NCBI GenBank assembly: GCA_028707535.1
Contig: JAQWAU010000011.1
Coordinates: forward strand, 1-46,413
Origin: Heliobacteriaceae bacterium
GTDB taxonomy: Bacteria > Bacillota > Desulfitobacteriia > Heliobacteriales > Heliobacteriaceae
Direction: 5' to 3'
DNA: 46,413 nucleotides
Shown: positions 40,392-46,323 of the stretch, piece by piece
Position numbering within the stretch: the stretch's first letter is position 1
Layout of the letters: each line of letters opens with the position of its first letter
The notes under the pieces: generated by a model
What the model was told of the DNA's origin: nothing
The model's database searches: none
Seen by the model: the letters and a program-made list of their open reading frames with translations, nothing else
Made by a program: the position numbers and the translations under genes

Positions 40392-41708
40392 TTATTGCCG
40401 GAAGACCAGATACTTGTCTACCGCGGCCGCCGCGATCGCCCCATCCCCGACCGCTGTTGCCACCTGCCGCAAAGGTGTATTCCGGATGTCCCCACAAGCG
40501 AAAACCCCCGGCACATTGGTTGCCATGGTCGCATCCACGGCGATATACCCTTCCGGTGTTTTCGCCACCTGGCCCGCCAAGTATTCCAAGGCCGGACTGT
40601 ACCCGATATACACAAAAACACCATCACAGGGAATCTCCGTGATCACCCCGGTTTTTACGTTCCTTACCCGCACCAGTTCCACTGCTTGGTTGCCCCCAAT
40701 TTCCTCCACCACCGTGTCCCACGAAAAACGCAACTTGGGTTCGGCAAAAGCCCGCTCCTGCAGCAATTTTACCGCCCGCAACTGGTCACGGCGGTGAATC
40801 AAGACCACTTCGGCCGCCAATCGGGTCAAATACAGGGCTTCCTCAACCGCGGCGTTACCCCCACCGACAACCACCACTTTTTTGTCCCGGAAAAGAGCCC
40901 CGTCACATGTTGCACAGTAGGATACCCCCCGGCCGGTGAAGCGCTCTTCCCCCGGGACCCCCAACCGCCTGGCTTTAGCCCCGCCGGCAATAATTACCGC
41001 CCGGGCATAGCGAACTTTTTCAGCCGTTTCCACCCGTTTAAGGTGACCGCGCAAACCAGTTTGGAGCACGTTTTCGGTAATCAAATCAACCCCGAAACGT
41101 TGGGCTTGGGCCAGAAACCTGAGCATTAACTCTGCCCCCGCAATCGGTTCGGCAAAGCCCGGATAGTTTTCAATCAAAGCCGTGGAAACAACCGCTCCCC
41201 CGGGGATTATCCCTTCAAACACTCCGGTCCGCAACCCGGAACGGGCGGCATACATCCCGGCGGTCAACCCGGCCGGGCCGGCGCCGATGATTAAAACGTC
41301 ATACACTTCCTTGTTTCCATCTGCCAACCAAGCCTTATAGGCTTTTTTCAGACACCGGTCCATAACCACCGTCAGTCCGGCTTTCCGGGCCAACGCCGCT
41401 GCCCTTTGGTCAACCACACCCTCCGGAAGCCACAAGACCCGGGCCCCCCGCTCCACGGCCTCCCGGGCAACCGGAAGCACTGCCGCCGACCGGCGGAACA
41501 CGGCGACAAGATCAATGGCCTTACCCTGGGGAACCGCTGCCAATTCCGGATAGCAAGGTTGACCCAATATTTCGGTGGCGGATGGATTAAGGGGAATTAT
41601 CTCAAAGCCTTGCCCCTGAAGATATCTGGCAACCTGATTACTGGGACGGTCACCCCGCATGGATAGCCCAACAATAGCCACGGTGGCCAATGACGCAAAA
41701 TCTAACAT
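40392..41708 (-). CDS. CoA-binding domain/thioredoxin reductase fusion
   Basis: 438 residues. The first about 125 are a CoA_binding (YccU-like, Rossmann) domain: TVAIVGLSMRGDRPSNQVARYL, IIPLNPSATEILGQPCYPEL, GARVLWLPEGVVDQRAAALA (each in part). The rest is a complete TrxB-like flavoprotein: FAD motif IIGAGPAGLTAGMYAAR, the redox pair CATC (about 265-268, in SYCATCDGALF), NADPH motif VVGGGNAAVEEALYL and C-terminal FACGDIRNTPLRQ. ATG at 41708 has GGGGGTGG 7 nt upstream; a longer start at 41810 lies in the terminator of the downstream-named M23 gene. Likely reduces thioredoxin or a similar partner, with CoA or nucleotide sensing inferred. Confidence 0.9.
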   Translation of the reverse strand: MLDFASLATVAIVGLSMRGDRPSNQVARYLQGQGFEIIPLNPSATEILGQPCYPELAAVPQGKAIDLVAVFRRSAAVLPVAREAVERGARVLWLPEGVVDQRAAALARKAGLTVVMDRCLKKAYKAWLADGNKEVYDVLIIGAGPAGLTAGMYAARSGLRTGVFEGIIPGGAVVSTALIENYPGFAEPIAGAELMLRFLAQAQRFGVDLITENVLQTGLRGHLKRVETAEKVRYARAVIIAGGAKARRLGVPGEERFTGRGVSYCATCDGALFRDKKVVVVGGGNAAVEEALYLTRLAAEVVLIHRRDQLRAVKLLQERAFAEPKLRFSWDTVVEEIGGNQAVELVRVRNVKTGVITEIPCDGVFVYIGYSPALEYLAGQVAKTPEGYIAVDATMATNVPGVFACGDIRNTPLRQVATAVGDGAIAAAAVDKYLVFRQ

Positions 41709-41783
41709 GTTCTTACCACCCCCATTCCTGTTAGGATTCATCACTATATTATTCCTTGGACATGGCTCCCCTACACTTAAAGA

Positions 41784-41807
41784 GGGCCTCCTGTTTCCAG
41801 AAGGCCC
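41784..41807 (-). terminator. terminator of the M23 peptidase gene
   Basis: GGGCCTCCTG pairs with CAGAAGGCCC (one mismatch) around TTTC; the minus strand continues TCTTT. Confidence 0.7.
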
Positions 41808-41814
41808 CACAATT

Positions 41815-43260
41815 CTACTTTAAATACCCCAACGGGTTCTTCGCCCCGCCATCGTATACTTCAAAATGTAGGTGGCTACCATATGCCCTTCCGGTCGCCC
41901 CGCCCGCTCCAATCTTAGCCCCCCGGCTAACCGTCTGGCCGTTACCGACATTAATCTGGGACAGGTGGGCATAACGGGTCTGGATCCCTCCGTGATTAAT
42001 AACCACCATCTTGCCGTAATTACCATTCCACCCGGCAGATACGACCACCCCGTCAGCGGCGGCATAAATCGGATCCCCGGTGTTTACATCTATATCGATC
42101 GCCGGATGATACTCCCGGCCCCGGTACCCAAACCCGGAGGTAATCCGCCGGCCATTGGTCGGCCAGGAAAGGGCCCCACTGCCACCACCGGAGTAGCTGC
42201 TACCGGTAGAACCCCGGGAAGCAACATAATAACGGTCATTACCCCGTACCTCAATCCGGGGTACCGGCTCCTTGAGCACCTTTTCCGTGGTCAAGGCTTC
42301 TTCGAACTGAATATTGTTTTCCTTACTTACCACATATGTAGCAATCTTCCGCCCCGGGGCGCCTTCCCGCTTTACCCGGACGGTCCCGGACCGGAGGTTG
42401 GTATCCTGCTCAATCTTGGTCGGGCAAGGGATGTCCTCTTCCGCCGTAATCCGGTAGGTACTAACCACGTTCAAATAATGTACCGGCCGGTTAAGAAACA
42501 ACTCCTGATCGATCTGCAACTTATTTTCATTCACCAGCTGGGAATTAGCCAACCGGAGTTCTTCCCAATTCATCCCCTGTTTAGCCGCAATCCCCCAAAG
42601 GGTATCACCCTGTTGGACGATATAACGAACCTTTTCCCCTTTGCCGTTAATTAATAAGTCTTTTACTGTGGCCGGCGCTTGAATTTGGTCCGGACTTACC
42701 TCGACATCATCGTAAGTAACCTGCTGTTTGGTCTCAATCGCCAGAACTTCCATTCCATCCCCAAGTTGGCCGTAAGAAAAAAAGTTTACCGCTTCTTTTA
42801 CCACCTGTTCGGCTTCTTCCCGGTTAGCCAAAACAAAAACCGGCTGCCCGTCGATTTTTACCTGGCAGGCTTGCCGCACTGCGGCTTCTCCCGGCAACCC
42901 CTGGCTGTTGGCCAGACCATCCGGTTGCCCTGCTTGGCCCCCTGGGGATAGTGCAAATACCGCCACCACCAACACCAGTGCGACCATCCCCACGAGGCCC
43001 CCGATAAACCCTTTATGCCGCCACCGATCGGCCCAGGCCGGCAACCGGCCTTGTGCCCAACGTTCTTGCAACCATGCCTTTTTATTCCGGATAAACGAAA
43101 AATCCGGCTTCGGCAAAAGATTATACCAACCGGCCAGGTTCTCGCGCCAAGTTCGTTTACGTCGCTGGCGCCGGCCACATTCAGCCTGTAGTTGCTCACC
43201 GGAGCCCTTTTTACTCTTTCGAGATAGCAGACTGTTAAAAATATCGTTTCCCCGAAACAT
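41815..43260 (-). CDS. LysM/G5 M23 peptidoglycan endopeptidase
   Basis: Cell-wall metallopeptidase of 481 residues. A long basic cytoplasmic N-terminus (about 1-82), one transmembrane helix (about 84-104), a linker, a LysM domain (YIVQQGDTLWGIAAKQGMNW, about 212-258), a G5-like domain (RSGTVRVKREGAPGRKI), then the M23 LytM core with zinc ligands in GREYHPAIDID and HLHFEVY. AGGGGGC lies 8 nt before the ATG. Such proteins cut peptide cross-links during growth or sporulation. Confidence 0.93.
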   Translation of the reverse strand: MFRGNDIFNSLLSRKSKKGSGEQLQAECGRRQRRKRTWRENLAGWYNLLPKPDFSFIRNKKAWLQERWAQGRLPAWADRWRHKGFIGGLVGMVALVLVVAVFALSPGGQAGQPDGLANSQGLPGEAAVRQACQVKIDGQPVFVLANREEAEQVVKEAVNFFSYGQLGDGMEVLAIETKQQVTYDDVEVSPDQIQAPATVKDLLINGKGEKVRYIVQQGDTLWGIAAKQGMNWEELRLANSQLVNENKLQIDQELFLNRPVHYLNVVSTYRITAEEDIPCPTKIEQDTNLRSGTVRVKREGAPGRKIATYVVSKENNIQFEEALTTEKVLKEPVPRIEVRGNDRYYVASRGSTGSSYSGGGSGALSWPTNGRRITSGFGYRGREYHPAIDIDVNTGDPIYAAADGVVVSAGWNGNYGKMVVINHGGIQTRYAHLSQINVGNGQTVSRGAKIGAGGATGRAYGSHLHFEVYDGGAKNPLGYLK

Positions 43261-43442
43261 TTGTGCCCCCTTTCAAACTGCGAAAAACGTCTGGTTAATC
43301 CGTTGTCAAAAGGTCATATGTTTATTGTTATCGATCCAAAAAGCCAAGATTTATTATAACATGACAATCCTCGTCGGGTAAACCCAGAAAATGCATATTT
43401 TACGCGATCCCTCGCTAAACCGGCAAGAATTGGTGAGTTAAG

Positions 43443-44879
43443 TTAGTCACCCTTTGTCTCGGCTAACACTTTAGCGTATAAAGCCCACTTTAACCGCAAC
43501 CTGGCTAAATCACAACCCAACCGGGCTGGCACAAGCAAATCCCCGGTAGCAGCCACATTATTGGCATGGCAACCACCGGAACAGAGAAATCTGGCCCAAC
43601 AGGCGGAACAACCCTGTTTATTGTAAATATGCGCCTGTTGAAACTGCCCGCTTGTATCCATTTTATGGAATCCGGTGGTTATGTGCCCCAACCGGAATTT
43701 TTCCCGGCCCACGAATTGGTGACAAGGGTAGAGATCCCCATTCGGTGCCACTGCGAGGTACTCAAACCCCGCCCCACAACCGGAAAGGCGTTTTGCCAGA
43801 CAAGGCCCTCCGGCCAAATCTAACTGAAAATGGAAAAAGTTAAACGGTCGACCGGCTTGGGCATACCGGCTGGAAGCCTCCGCCAATTCCCGGTATTGTT
43901 CGTCCAGCAAGGGCAAATCCTCCGGACATAAGGCATAATGGGCCTTAGGGCTGGCCACCACCGGTTCCACCGATAAGTTGTTAAAACCCAAATCGTGAAT
44001 ATGCAAGGCATCCCGGGCAAAATCCGGGTTAAACCGGGTAAAAGTGCCCCGAACATAATACTCCCCATCCGGCCGGGAACGGACAAAGGCCTGCAGATTG
44101 GCCACCACATCCTGGTAGGAACCTCGGCCTTGCCAATCAGGCCGCATCCGGTCATGCACCACCGGCCGGCCGTCCAAAGACAAGACGACCGCCAGTCCTT
44201 CGGCATTTAAAAACCGCCCGACATCCGCATCCAAAAGCACCCCATTGGTCGTCAAGGTCAGTTTCAAGCTCTTCCCCGCCCGGGCCGAGCGCTCTTTGGC
44301 ATACCTAACCAGTTCTTGTACTACCGTAAAATTAAGCAAAGGCTCGCCGCCAAAGAAGTCGATTTCGATCTGCTGCCGGCCTTGGGAATTCCGGAGTAAA
44401 AAATCGATGGCTTGCCGCCCGATATCCGGCGACATCAAACTCCGGTCCCCGCCAAACGGTCCGGTCCCGGCAAAACAATACCGGCAGCACAAATTACAAT
44501 CATGGGCCACATGGAGACATAGTGCCTTTACCGTAGGTTCCCCGACCGGGCGGCACCCTGCATATTGCCGGGCCAAAGCATCATCGGTAAACAACAAGCC
44601 CTTGGCCTCCAGATCCCCCAATTCGGCCAAGATCTCCTCAATCACTCCCTGGGTAAAAGAGCCGGCCAACCGGTCTTGCACCGCCTCCCCATCACCCCGA
44701 ACGGCGGCCAAAGTGTCCAACACCAGTTTCGCCGCCAGATCAAACCGGTGGAGGGAACCAGAATTTACATCGTAACAAAAAGCCGTTTCACCGTAACTAA
44801 AAGTGAACACATGGGCCGGAAAATCATAACCGTCCAGTTTATTCCACCAAGCTGTCAAGCTGCCAACCACCTTAAACAT
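43443..44879 (-). CDS. SCIFF peptide maturase, radical SAM SPASM enzyme
   Basis: Introduces thioether links into the SCIFF peptide encoded just upstream. 478 residues: an N-terminal peptide-recognition region, the radical SAM CxxxCxxC at Cys128, Cys132 and Cys135 (HDCNLCCRYCF), GGEPLLN, a SAM-binding TTNG, and a C-terminal SPASM domain with many cysteines (GPCLAKRLSGCGAG, LYPCHQF, GCSACWARFLCSGGCHANN). The gene is 80 bp after the peptide gene with an attenuator-like hairpin between. The ATG at 44879 has only a weak GGAAA upstream. Confidence 0.93.
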   Translation of the reverse strand: MFKVVGSLTAWWNKLDGYDFPAHVFTFSYGETAFCYDVNSGSLHRFDLAAKLVLDTLAAVRGDGEAVQDRLAGSFTQGVIEEILAELGDLEAKGLLFTDDALARQYAGCRPVGEPTVKALCLHVAHDCNLCCRYCFAGTGPFGGDRSLMSPDIGRQAIDFLLRNSQGRQQIEIDFFGGEPLLNFTVVQELVRYAKERSARAGKSLKLTLTTNGVLLDADVGRFLNAEGLAVVLSLDGRPVVHDRMRPDWQGRGSYQDVVANLQAFVRSRPDGEYYVRGTFTRFNPDFARDALHIHDLGFNNLSVEPVVASPKAHYALCPEDLPLLDEQYRELAEASSRYAQAGRPFNFFHFQLDLAGGPCLAKRLSGCGAGFEYLAVAPNGDLYPCHQFVGREKFRLGHITTGFHKMDTSGQFQQAHIYNKQGCSACWARFLCSGGCHANNVAATGDLLVPARLGCDLARLRLKWALYAKVLAETKGD

Positions 44880-44911
44880 TGAGTTTTTCCAATAGTTCTA
44901 CTCTGCAGATA

Positions 44912-44944
44912 AAAACCCTCTATTCCCTGAGGAACAGAGGGTTT
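44912..44944 (-). terminator. hairpin between SCIFF peptide and maturase genes
   Basis: On the minus strand AAACCCTC pairs with GAGGGTTT, with an inner CC/GG, followed by TTTTTATC. It would end most transcripts after the short peptide gene and let a minority reach the maturase gene. Confidence 0.75.
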
Positions 44945-44959
44945 GCCTACCCTTGGATC

Positions 44960-45115
44960 TTACCGCCGTTTTTCCGGCTTTTGACAAACTTGATTGCCGA
45001 CCGTACAAGAGGTTTTACAGGCCGATTGGCACGAGGTTTGGCATTCACCGCATCCACCGGTCTTAAGCGTTTGCTGTAGATTGCCTTTTTGCACCGTGAC
45101 GATATGTTTACCCAC
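44960..45115 (-). CDS. SCIFF peptide (six cysteines in forty-five residues)
   Basis: 51-residue ribosomal peptide precursor: starts MGKHIVTVQKGNLQQTLKTG and has six cysteines at 22, 25, 29, 33, 37 and 44 (GGCGECQTSCQSACKTSC core). This is the near-invariant SCIFF family of Clostridia, adjacent to its maturase as expected. GTG start with GGGGG about 9 nt upstream. It is too short for many gene callers. Its biological role is not established. Confidence 0.93.
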   Translation of the reverse strand: MGKHIVTVQKGNLQQTLKTGGCGECQTSCQSACKTSCTVGNQVCQKPEKRR

Positions 45116-45183
45116 GGAAGAAATCCCCCTTCACCGCTGGTATAAATAAACCATAGGTATTATAGCATTAACCGGCAGCCGGC

Positions 45184-45960
45184 TCAACCCTCGTAACCAG
45201 TTGCCGGGGGTGTTGCGGGCTCCTGAGCCAACCCCTTACGGCGCCGGTAATAAACCAGACCGGCGGCAACCAGGATCCACACCAGGCTCATCACCTGGGC
45301 CAAGCGGAAAGGTCCGAGCATCTCCGAGTCCATCCGTAAAGCCTCGATGCCGAAACGACCCAAGGAGTAATAGGCCAGGTAAGCAAGGAAGACTTCCCCC
45401 CGCCGCAACCAATTCCGCCGCCGCAACCACAACAAAAGGCAAAACCCGCTCAAGTCCCACAAAGATTCGTATAAAAAGGTGGGATGCCGCCACTCACCGG
45501 CGATAAACATCGCCCAAGGGCCGGCCGTCGGATAACCGTAGGCCTCTTGATTAAAAAAGTTACCCCAGCGACCAATCGCCTGGCCCAAAATAATCGCCGG
45601 TGCGGCCACATCCGCCATTTGCCAAAACGACACCCCGTGTTTACGGGTATAATACCAGCCGAACAAAAACGCGGTTAGTAAAGCCCCGTGAATCGCCAGG
45701 CCGCCATGCCAAATCGCCACGATTTCCCGGGGATCGTTGGCATAATACTGCCAGTTGAACACCACGTAATACACACGGGCCCCAAGAACGGCCAATGGTA
45801 CCACCCACAAGACCAGGTTGTAGAGAAAATCCAAATCCAGCCCTTGCCGGCGCGCCTCCCGGGCCGCCACCCAAGTAGCCACCAGAACGGCAAGGCTTAA
45901 CAAGATACCATACCAGTTAACCGTTATTGGGCCAAACTGAAAAGCAACCGGATCAGGCAA
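45184..45960 (-). CDS. lgt: prolipoprotein diacylglyceryl transferase
   Basis: Membrane enzyme that transfers diacylglycerol from phosphatidylglycerol to the lipobox cysteine of prelipoproteins. 258 residues and about seven hydrophobic segments, with PDPVAFQFGPITVNWYG at the start, HGGLAIHGALL and the signature GRWGNFFNQEAYG. The start is a TTG at 45960 with GGGGGG 5 nt upstream. The open frame continues to 46395 but that part reads antisense-free through three tRNA genes and is not protein. Confidence 0.94.
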   Translation of the reverse strand: MPDPVAFQFGPITVNWYGILLSLAVLVATWVAAREARRQGLDLDFLYNLVLWVVPLAVLGARVYYVVFNWQYYANDPREIVAIWHGGLAIHGALLTAFLFGWYYTRKHGVSFWQMADVAAPAIILGQAIGRWGNFFNQEAYGYPTAGPWAMFIAGEWRHPTFLYESLWDLSGFCLLLWLRRRNWLRRGEVFLAYLAYYSLGRFGIEALRMDSEMLGPFRLAQVMSLVWILVAAGLVYYRRRKGLAQEPATPPATGYEG

Positions 45961-46085
45961 AACAACCCCCCCAAACAACAAAAATCGCCTAGAAAAAATA
46001 AAGAACCCGCCCCCAGTTTCAACTGAGAACAAGCCCCTTATGCAAATAATTATATCCCATTGCTGCGGTTTTTGCAAGAAAAAAA

Positions 46086-46162
46086 TGGCGGAGCAGACGA
46101 GATTCGAACTCGCGATCTCCAGCGTGACAGGCTGGCATGTTAGGCCTCTACACCACTGCTCC
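46086..46162 (-). tRNA. tRNA-Asp(GTC)
   Basis: Acceptor GGAGCAG/CTGCTCC, anticodon loop CTGTCAC (anticodon GTC), discriminator G and encoded CCA. Third gene of the tRNA operon. Confidence 0.96.
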
Positions 46163-46165
46163 GTT

Positions 46166-46241
46166 TGGTGGGCGATGACAGGCTTGAACTGCCGACCCCC
46201 TGCTTGTAAGGCAGGTGCTCTCCCAACTGAGCTAATCGCCC
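46166..46241 (-). tRNA. tRNA-Val(TAC)
   Basis: Acceptor GGGCGAT/ATCGCCC, anticodon loop TTACAAG (anticodon TAC), discriminator A and encoded CCA. Confidence 0.95.
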
Positions 46242-46247
46242 AAAAAA

Positions 46248-46323
46248 TGGTGACCCGTAGGGGATTCGAACCCCTGTAACCGCCGTGAAAGGGCGGTGTC
46301 TTAGACCACTTGACCAACGGGCC
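46248..46323 (-). tRNA. tRNA-Glu(TTC)
   Basis: Acceptor GGCCCGT/ACGGGTC, anticodon loop CTTTCAC (anticodon TTC), discriminator A and encoded CCA. First gene of the operon. Confidence 0.95.

Follow-up and report, generated by a model that had tools for sequence, protein, structure and literature searches.

A widely conserved hairpin between the SCIFF precursor and maturase genes is probably a partial terminator

Introduction

How can a cell make much of a peptide and little of the enzyme that modifies it, if the two genes follow each other on the same strand? Among modified peptides, several operons begin with the peptide gene and have a terminator behind it, as in the case of pqqA and several lantibiotics. 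The question is raised again by a 46,413-nucleotide stretch of DNA from a Heliobacteriaceae bacterium (contig JAQWAU010000011.1, assembly GCA_028707535.1), hereafter the window, where the SCIFF precursor gene scfA is followed by a hairpin and then by the maturase gene scfB. The window shares the gene order and the stoichiometric logic with the pqqA and lantibiotic type of operon, whereas the peptides and hairpins are unrelated.

Here, we analyse this hairpin in the window and across SCIFF loci. We think it likely, with a probability of about 0.75, that the window carries a known SCIFF ranthipeptide locus with an internal partial terminator, where read-through would supply the maturase and set the peptide above the enzyme. 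The locus itself is of an already known kind; what we add is a measure of how widely the intercistronic terminator is conserved. In the literature that we searched, which covered subscription journals thinly, we found no account of SCIFF operons that describes their transcripts or this hairpin.

Genes and signals of the SCIFF locus

The coordinates of the features are collected in Table 1. The scfA product exceeds the cut-offs of two curated models, with 82.6 bits for TIGR03973 of NCBIfam (cut-off 50) and 85.1 bits for PF13165 of Pfam (cut-off 27). Six cysteines stand at fixed spacing in its C-terminal region, and its core GCGECQTSCQSACKTSCTVGNQVC equals the consensus at each position when compared to 193 relatives. 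A first-pass annotation of this DNA had recognised the peptide by the spacing of the six cysteines, which the model scores support. It had also called the gene unannotatably small; this does not hold, since both curated models recognise the precursor, in agreement with the earlier remark that the SCIFF gene is overlooked easily, yet readily recognised after its discovery (PMC5300114). In some other loci, one or more of the fixed cysteines are missing (L145, L150, L169, L181, L205 and L210; e.g. KTSITV, KTSLTV, SASKTS), and these peptides are natural variants that are useful for asking which cysteines matter.

The maturase gene lies 80 nt downstream of scfA. As had been proposed, it encodes a radical SAM/SPASM protein: its product scores 543.7 bits for TIGR03974 (cut-off 425), contains the radical SAM and SPASM domains and has PDB 5wgg as its top solved homologue (452 bits). 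The in-frame TTG at 44858 is preceded, at good spacing, by AAGGTGG, a better ribosome site than that of the ATG at 44879, and may be the true scfB start.

Both proteins thus pass the curated models, as do those of scfA-scfB (Tte1186a/Tte1186 of Caldanaerobacter and CteA/CteB of Clostridium thermocellum). Furthermore, the acceptor/donor region CKTSCTVGNQ is intact and, with its match to 5wgg, the maturase also resembles that of the SCIFF/ranthipeptide system. The window differs from the known SCIFF systems in its GTG start and in its short C-terminal tail QKPEKRR. It is an ordinary SCIFF ranthipeptide locus, for whose mature peptide a non-alpha thioether cross-link is predicted.

Table 1. Features of the SCIFF locus and its surroundings in the window
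Feature	Position	Strand	Remarks
lgt (prolipoprotein diacylglyceryl transferase)	45184..46005, start putative	-	Upstream; TIGR00544, 231.6 bits
tRNA-Glu, tRNA-Val, tRNA-Asp cluster	46086..46323	-	Upstream
SCIFF promoter-like site, TTGAGC-17-TATAAT	45159..45187	-	Extended -10 (TGcTATAAT); 10/12 consensus matches
scfA ribosome-binding site AAGGGGGA	45124..45131	-	Putative, from sequence; 8 nt 5' of GTG
scfA, SCIFF precursor peptide	44960..45115	-	51 aa/51 codons, GTG start; matches to TIGR03973 and PF13165
Intercistronic hairpin	44913..44944	-	14 pairs, TCAG loop, then U-tail; probable partial intrinsic terminator, from folding and conservation
U-rich tail TTTTTATCTGC	44907..44917	-	First Ts also pair at stem base; tail score 3.65
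scfB, radical SAM/SPASM SCIFF maturase	43443..44879	-	TIGR03974; start ATG 44879 or TTG 44858
M23 peptidase with G5 and LysM domains	41815..43260	-	Downstream; probably a separate transcription unit

Between the two genes, the T-tailed hairpin noticed in the first-pass annotation is borne out. Its arms AAACCCTCTGTTCC-TCAG-GGAATAGAGGGTTT are followed by the U-tail TTTTTATCTG (44913-44944, minus strand), and its 14 pairs give a stability of -22.6 kcal/mol (z = -4.9), which none of 200 shuffled sequences equalled. The hairpin begins 15 nt past the SCIFF stop codon and ends 33 nt before the ATG, or 54 nt before the TTG, of scfB. A stable, G+C-containing hairpin with a U-rich tract immediately after it is thus present, as is required of an intrinsic terminator. 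A generic terminator scan reported the structure merely as a 5-bp match; folding and comparative evidence show that the hairpin is real. In strength and U-tail it is similar to the ordinary full terminators elsewhere in this genome. The sequence therefore does not reveal partial read-through.

Conservation of the hairpin

To describe the spacer across lineages, we used 219 SCIFF loci, a phylogenetically uneven sample, since 80 of them are the top matches of a single search. A co-directional maturase gene lies downstream in 203 of them, and in 171 of these the spacer measures 27 nt or more. The model TIGR03973 matched in 59 of 61 relatives, in 165 of 200 genomes sampled throughout the phylum and in none of 14 control genomes. 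Few modified peptides of Clostridia are as widespread as SCIFF, whose role is still disputed.

Hairpins with a folding energy of -12 kcal/mol or lower are found in 123 of the 171 spacers, compared to a mean of 6.9 in shuffled sequences. A terminator-like hairpin, defined by a dG of -10 or better and a tail score of 2.5 or more, is found in 102 (shuffled mean 1.6). For comparison, comparable thresholds are passed by 11 of 63 ordinary co-directional gaps (27-250 nt) in the window's genome, taken from 20 contig stretches and the window. When loci are grouped at the family level, strict criteria are passed by 45 of 74 groups (shuffled rate 2.7%) and failed by 29. Several of the failures have a clear hairpin and miss narrowly (L129, L141, L142, L179, L180); others fail because scfA and scfB overlap or abut and leave no room for one (L154, L159, L173, L178, L195). 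The hairpin between SCIFF and maturase is thus a widespread, but not a universal device.

All nine genomes of the window's family (f1) have the hairpin, as variants of AACCCTCTATTCG..CGGATAGAGGGTT. In an alignment of the eight distinct f1 sequences, 96.4% of cells pair and 5 of the 14 pairs have changed on both sides; the covariation score is 0.276 vs 0.170 and was reached by none of 500 shuffles. The stem has therefore undergone compensatory changes. Covariation gives no information in f2, a Desulfitobacteriaceae-like family, since its hairpins hardly vary. Between families the hairpin sequences are unlike, and therefore either the structure was kept during sequence turnover or it originated repeatedly. 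Either history would imply selection.

Lachnospiraceae have a conserved hairpin, AAGCAGCG..CGCTGCTT, whose U-tail is often poor. This would favour a different function, namely an element of mRNA processing or stability: the bicistronic RNA would be cut and the hairpin would shield the 3' end of scfA from exonucleases, with little termination. Differential stability based on stem-loops has been predicted for Clostridium operons (PMC8219983). For protection alone, however, a U-tail would not be needed, and it is present in the window and in many lineages. We consider this explanation distinctly unlikely.

The position of the hairpin relative to scfA bears on a second alternative. The first-pass annotation had spoken of an attenuator; in the regulated sense, an anti-terminator would compete with the hairpin or a translating ribosome would open it, and maturase synthesis would answer a signal. 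A ribosome paused at the SCIFF stop codon could indeed interfere with a hairpin that begins 15 nt further on, and in some relatives the hairpin extends into the stop codon itself (e.g. L064, L142, L155). The distance between stop codon and hairpin is variable, however, and ranges from about -3 to >70 nt across loci. Furthermore, the 5' arm has no excess of upstream pairing compared to shuffled arms (mean z -0.19, sd 1.1 in 117 loci; z 0.8 in the window), that is, no mutually exclusive anti-terminator structure was detected by 5'-arm pairing in the window and the 117 loci. An Rfam scan for a ligand-binding or T-box/leader element upstream returned tRNAs only. A regulated attenuator is thus very unlikely, and as no conserved anti-terminator was found, the term partial terminator fits better than attenuator.

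Promoters and expression of the maturase gene

If the hairpin is a partial terminator, the maturase should be transcribed from the scfA promoter. An extended -10 of the form TGnTATAAT lies at most 120 nt upstream of SCIFF in 9 of 9 f1 genomes and in 62 of 139 loci (shuffles 0.6%). In the window, a scan for the -10/-35 consensus, which could miss a promoter, found no minus-strand promoter-like site from 45159 to 44879, the interior of scfA included. The sole promoter-like site before the enzyme gene is that before SCIFF, and the enzyme therefore probably comes from read-through.

We propose the following mechanism. The promoter about 45 nt upstream of scfA would drive a short, peptide-only mRNA of about 245 nt, starting near 45152 and ending near 44908. 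Most RNA polymerases would halt at the hairpin, and a minority would read through and produce a bicistronic message that supplies the maturase. In vivo, termination would then probably be partial, and the hairpin would fix the peptide well above the enzyme, as befits a substrate and its catalyst. That the hairpin is suited to make much peptide and little enzyme had been suggested in the first-pass annotation, and its wide conservation and the compensatory changes in f1 are consistent with this.

Alternatively, the locus might consist of two transcription units, with the hairpin as the complete terminator of scfA and an scfB promoter that escapes the -10/-35 consensus. Such an arrangement does exist in a sister family (f3), where a TATAAT-type promoter lies between the hairpin and scfB (e.g. 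L016, L020, L024, L025, L200, L203). Even within f1, one locus (L007) has TATAAT sites after the hairpin, and a hairpin as strong as ordinary terminators would suit a complete stop. In the window, however, the short distance from the hairpin to either scfB start contains no promoter-like site, nor does scfA, and most of the window's family likewise have none after the hairpin. Across loci, a -10-like site between hairpin and maturase is found in 2 of 73 loci with a gap of at most 40 nt, vs 22 of 79 with a longer gap. We therefore regard two units as unlikely in the window, and read-through past a partial terminator is probably the most economical reading.

The arrangement in f3 also differs upstream. 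A TGnTATAAT promoter of its own precedes scfA in only 2 of 18 f3 loci, compared to 9 of 9 f1 loci and 20 of 21 f2 loci. In f3, scfA closely trails an upstream gene of an unassigned family. A conserved gene with a product of about 200 aa lies just upstream of scfA in f3 and in part of f2, stopping roughly 15 nt short of it (L016, L019-L021, L023-L025, L030, L200-L203, L210). For L210, the protein had no Pfam match and looks lipoprotein-like, with LGGCDS near the N-terminus. The gene is a possible functional partner of SCIFF in these loci.

Most SCIFF genes that lack a neighbouring maturase gene nevertheless end in a terminator-like hairpin, and in all ten genomes with a detached SCIFF gene that were tested, the maturase is encoded elsewhere. 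For instance, a detached SCIFF gene is directly followed by a terminator-like hairpin in L031, L035, L052 and L059 (Selenomonadaceae or Selenomonadales MAGs), and also in L127, L135, L160, L164 and L190, where the maturase gene lies elsewhere in each of the five genomes. The common theme across all these arrangements is that peptide and enzyme appear to be uncoupled.

Two further lines of argument were dropped. The U-tails are weaker in read-through loci than in own-promoter loci when compared by locus (p = 5e-4); this effect vanishes by family average (p = 0.43), and we do not use it as support for partial termination. The idea that a long fold sequesters the scfB ribosome site was rejected as well, since the pairing element sits elsewhere in relatives.

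Relation to known systems and function

Internal terminators that set operon ratios have been described in cellulolytic Clostridia, with 20.7-96.1% termination in a reporter operon (PMC9045158). The window resembles the stoichiometry terminators of ABC importers in that study: the abundant product comes first, followed by an intercistronic hairpin with a U-rich tail and then by the scarcer partner. It differs in the gene system and in its tail, which comes closer to the canonical terminator form than do most tails in that study.

The first-pass annotation had stated that the function of SCIFF is unknown. According to two reviews (PMC8326336, PMC8102284), Chen et al. 2020 ascribe to SCIFF a role in quorum sensing and sporulation in solventogenic clostridia; in a C. 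beijerinckii mutant, sporulation genes were down and agr was up. Molecular mechanism aside, the statement is thus outdated. The terminator is kept in many distant lineages, and in one family it is combined with a separate promoter, which suggests selection for unequal levels. Unequal levels of peptide and enzyme would favour a role that needs the peptide in quantity. For expression studies, pooled values for the operon will misjudge the expression of SCIFF, and the hairpin offers a simple testable handle in tractable strains. More speculatively, the SCIFF hairpin might be an under-described clostridial cis-element whose read-through is physiologically tuned, letting the maturase, and with it the modified signal peptide, track cell density or growth phase. 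Alternatively, the scfA mRNA released by termination might be an abundant small RNA with a second role. We regard such extensions as highly improbable.

Neighbouring genes and genome

Lastly, we analysed the surroundings of the locus. The genes named in the first-pass annotation, lgt and the tRNAs upstream and the M23 peptidase downstream, agree with domain and tRNA matches. Their use as a guide to the function of SCIFF was rejected. The lgt neighbour was detected only in the window's family, and in other lineages the neighbours include secD on the downstream side or DUF3792 and yajC on the upstream side, where secD and yajC are identifications from the sequence. The M23 gene is more conserved: all eight other f1 genomes have it behind scfB, and it also occurs at several more distant loci (L037, L046, L050, L072, L075, L098, L257). 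It has its own promoter-like site, however (43353-43382, minus strand), and the shared position is therefore weak evidence for a shared function. Two genes downstream of scfB, the window has a gene (40392-41810, minus strand) with a CoA_binding_2 domain fused to a thioredoxin-reductase-like flavoprotein; the family has kept this gene at that position.

The other genomes of the family look like heliobacteria, judging from their gene content: a type I reaction-centre gene (PF00223) is present in 8 of 8, and bchB (TIGR01278, over the cut-off) in 5 of 5 that were tested. In the window's genome (2.09 Mb, 87.6% complete), neither PF00223 nor bchB was found. The bacterium may be a family member that is not phototrophic, or the assembly may lack the phototrophy cluster.
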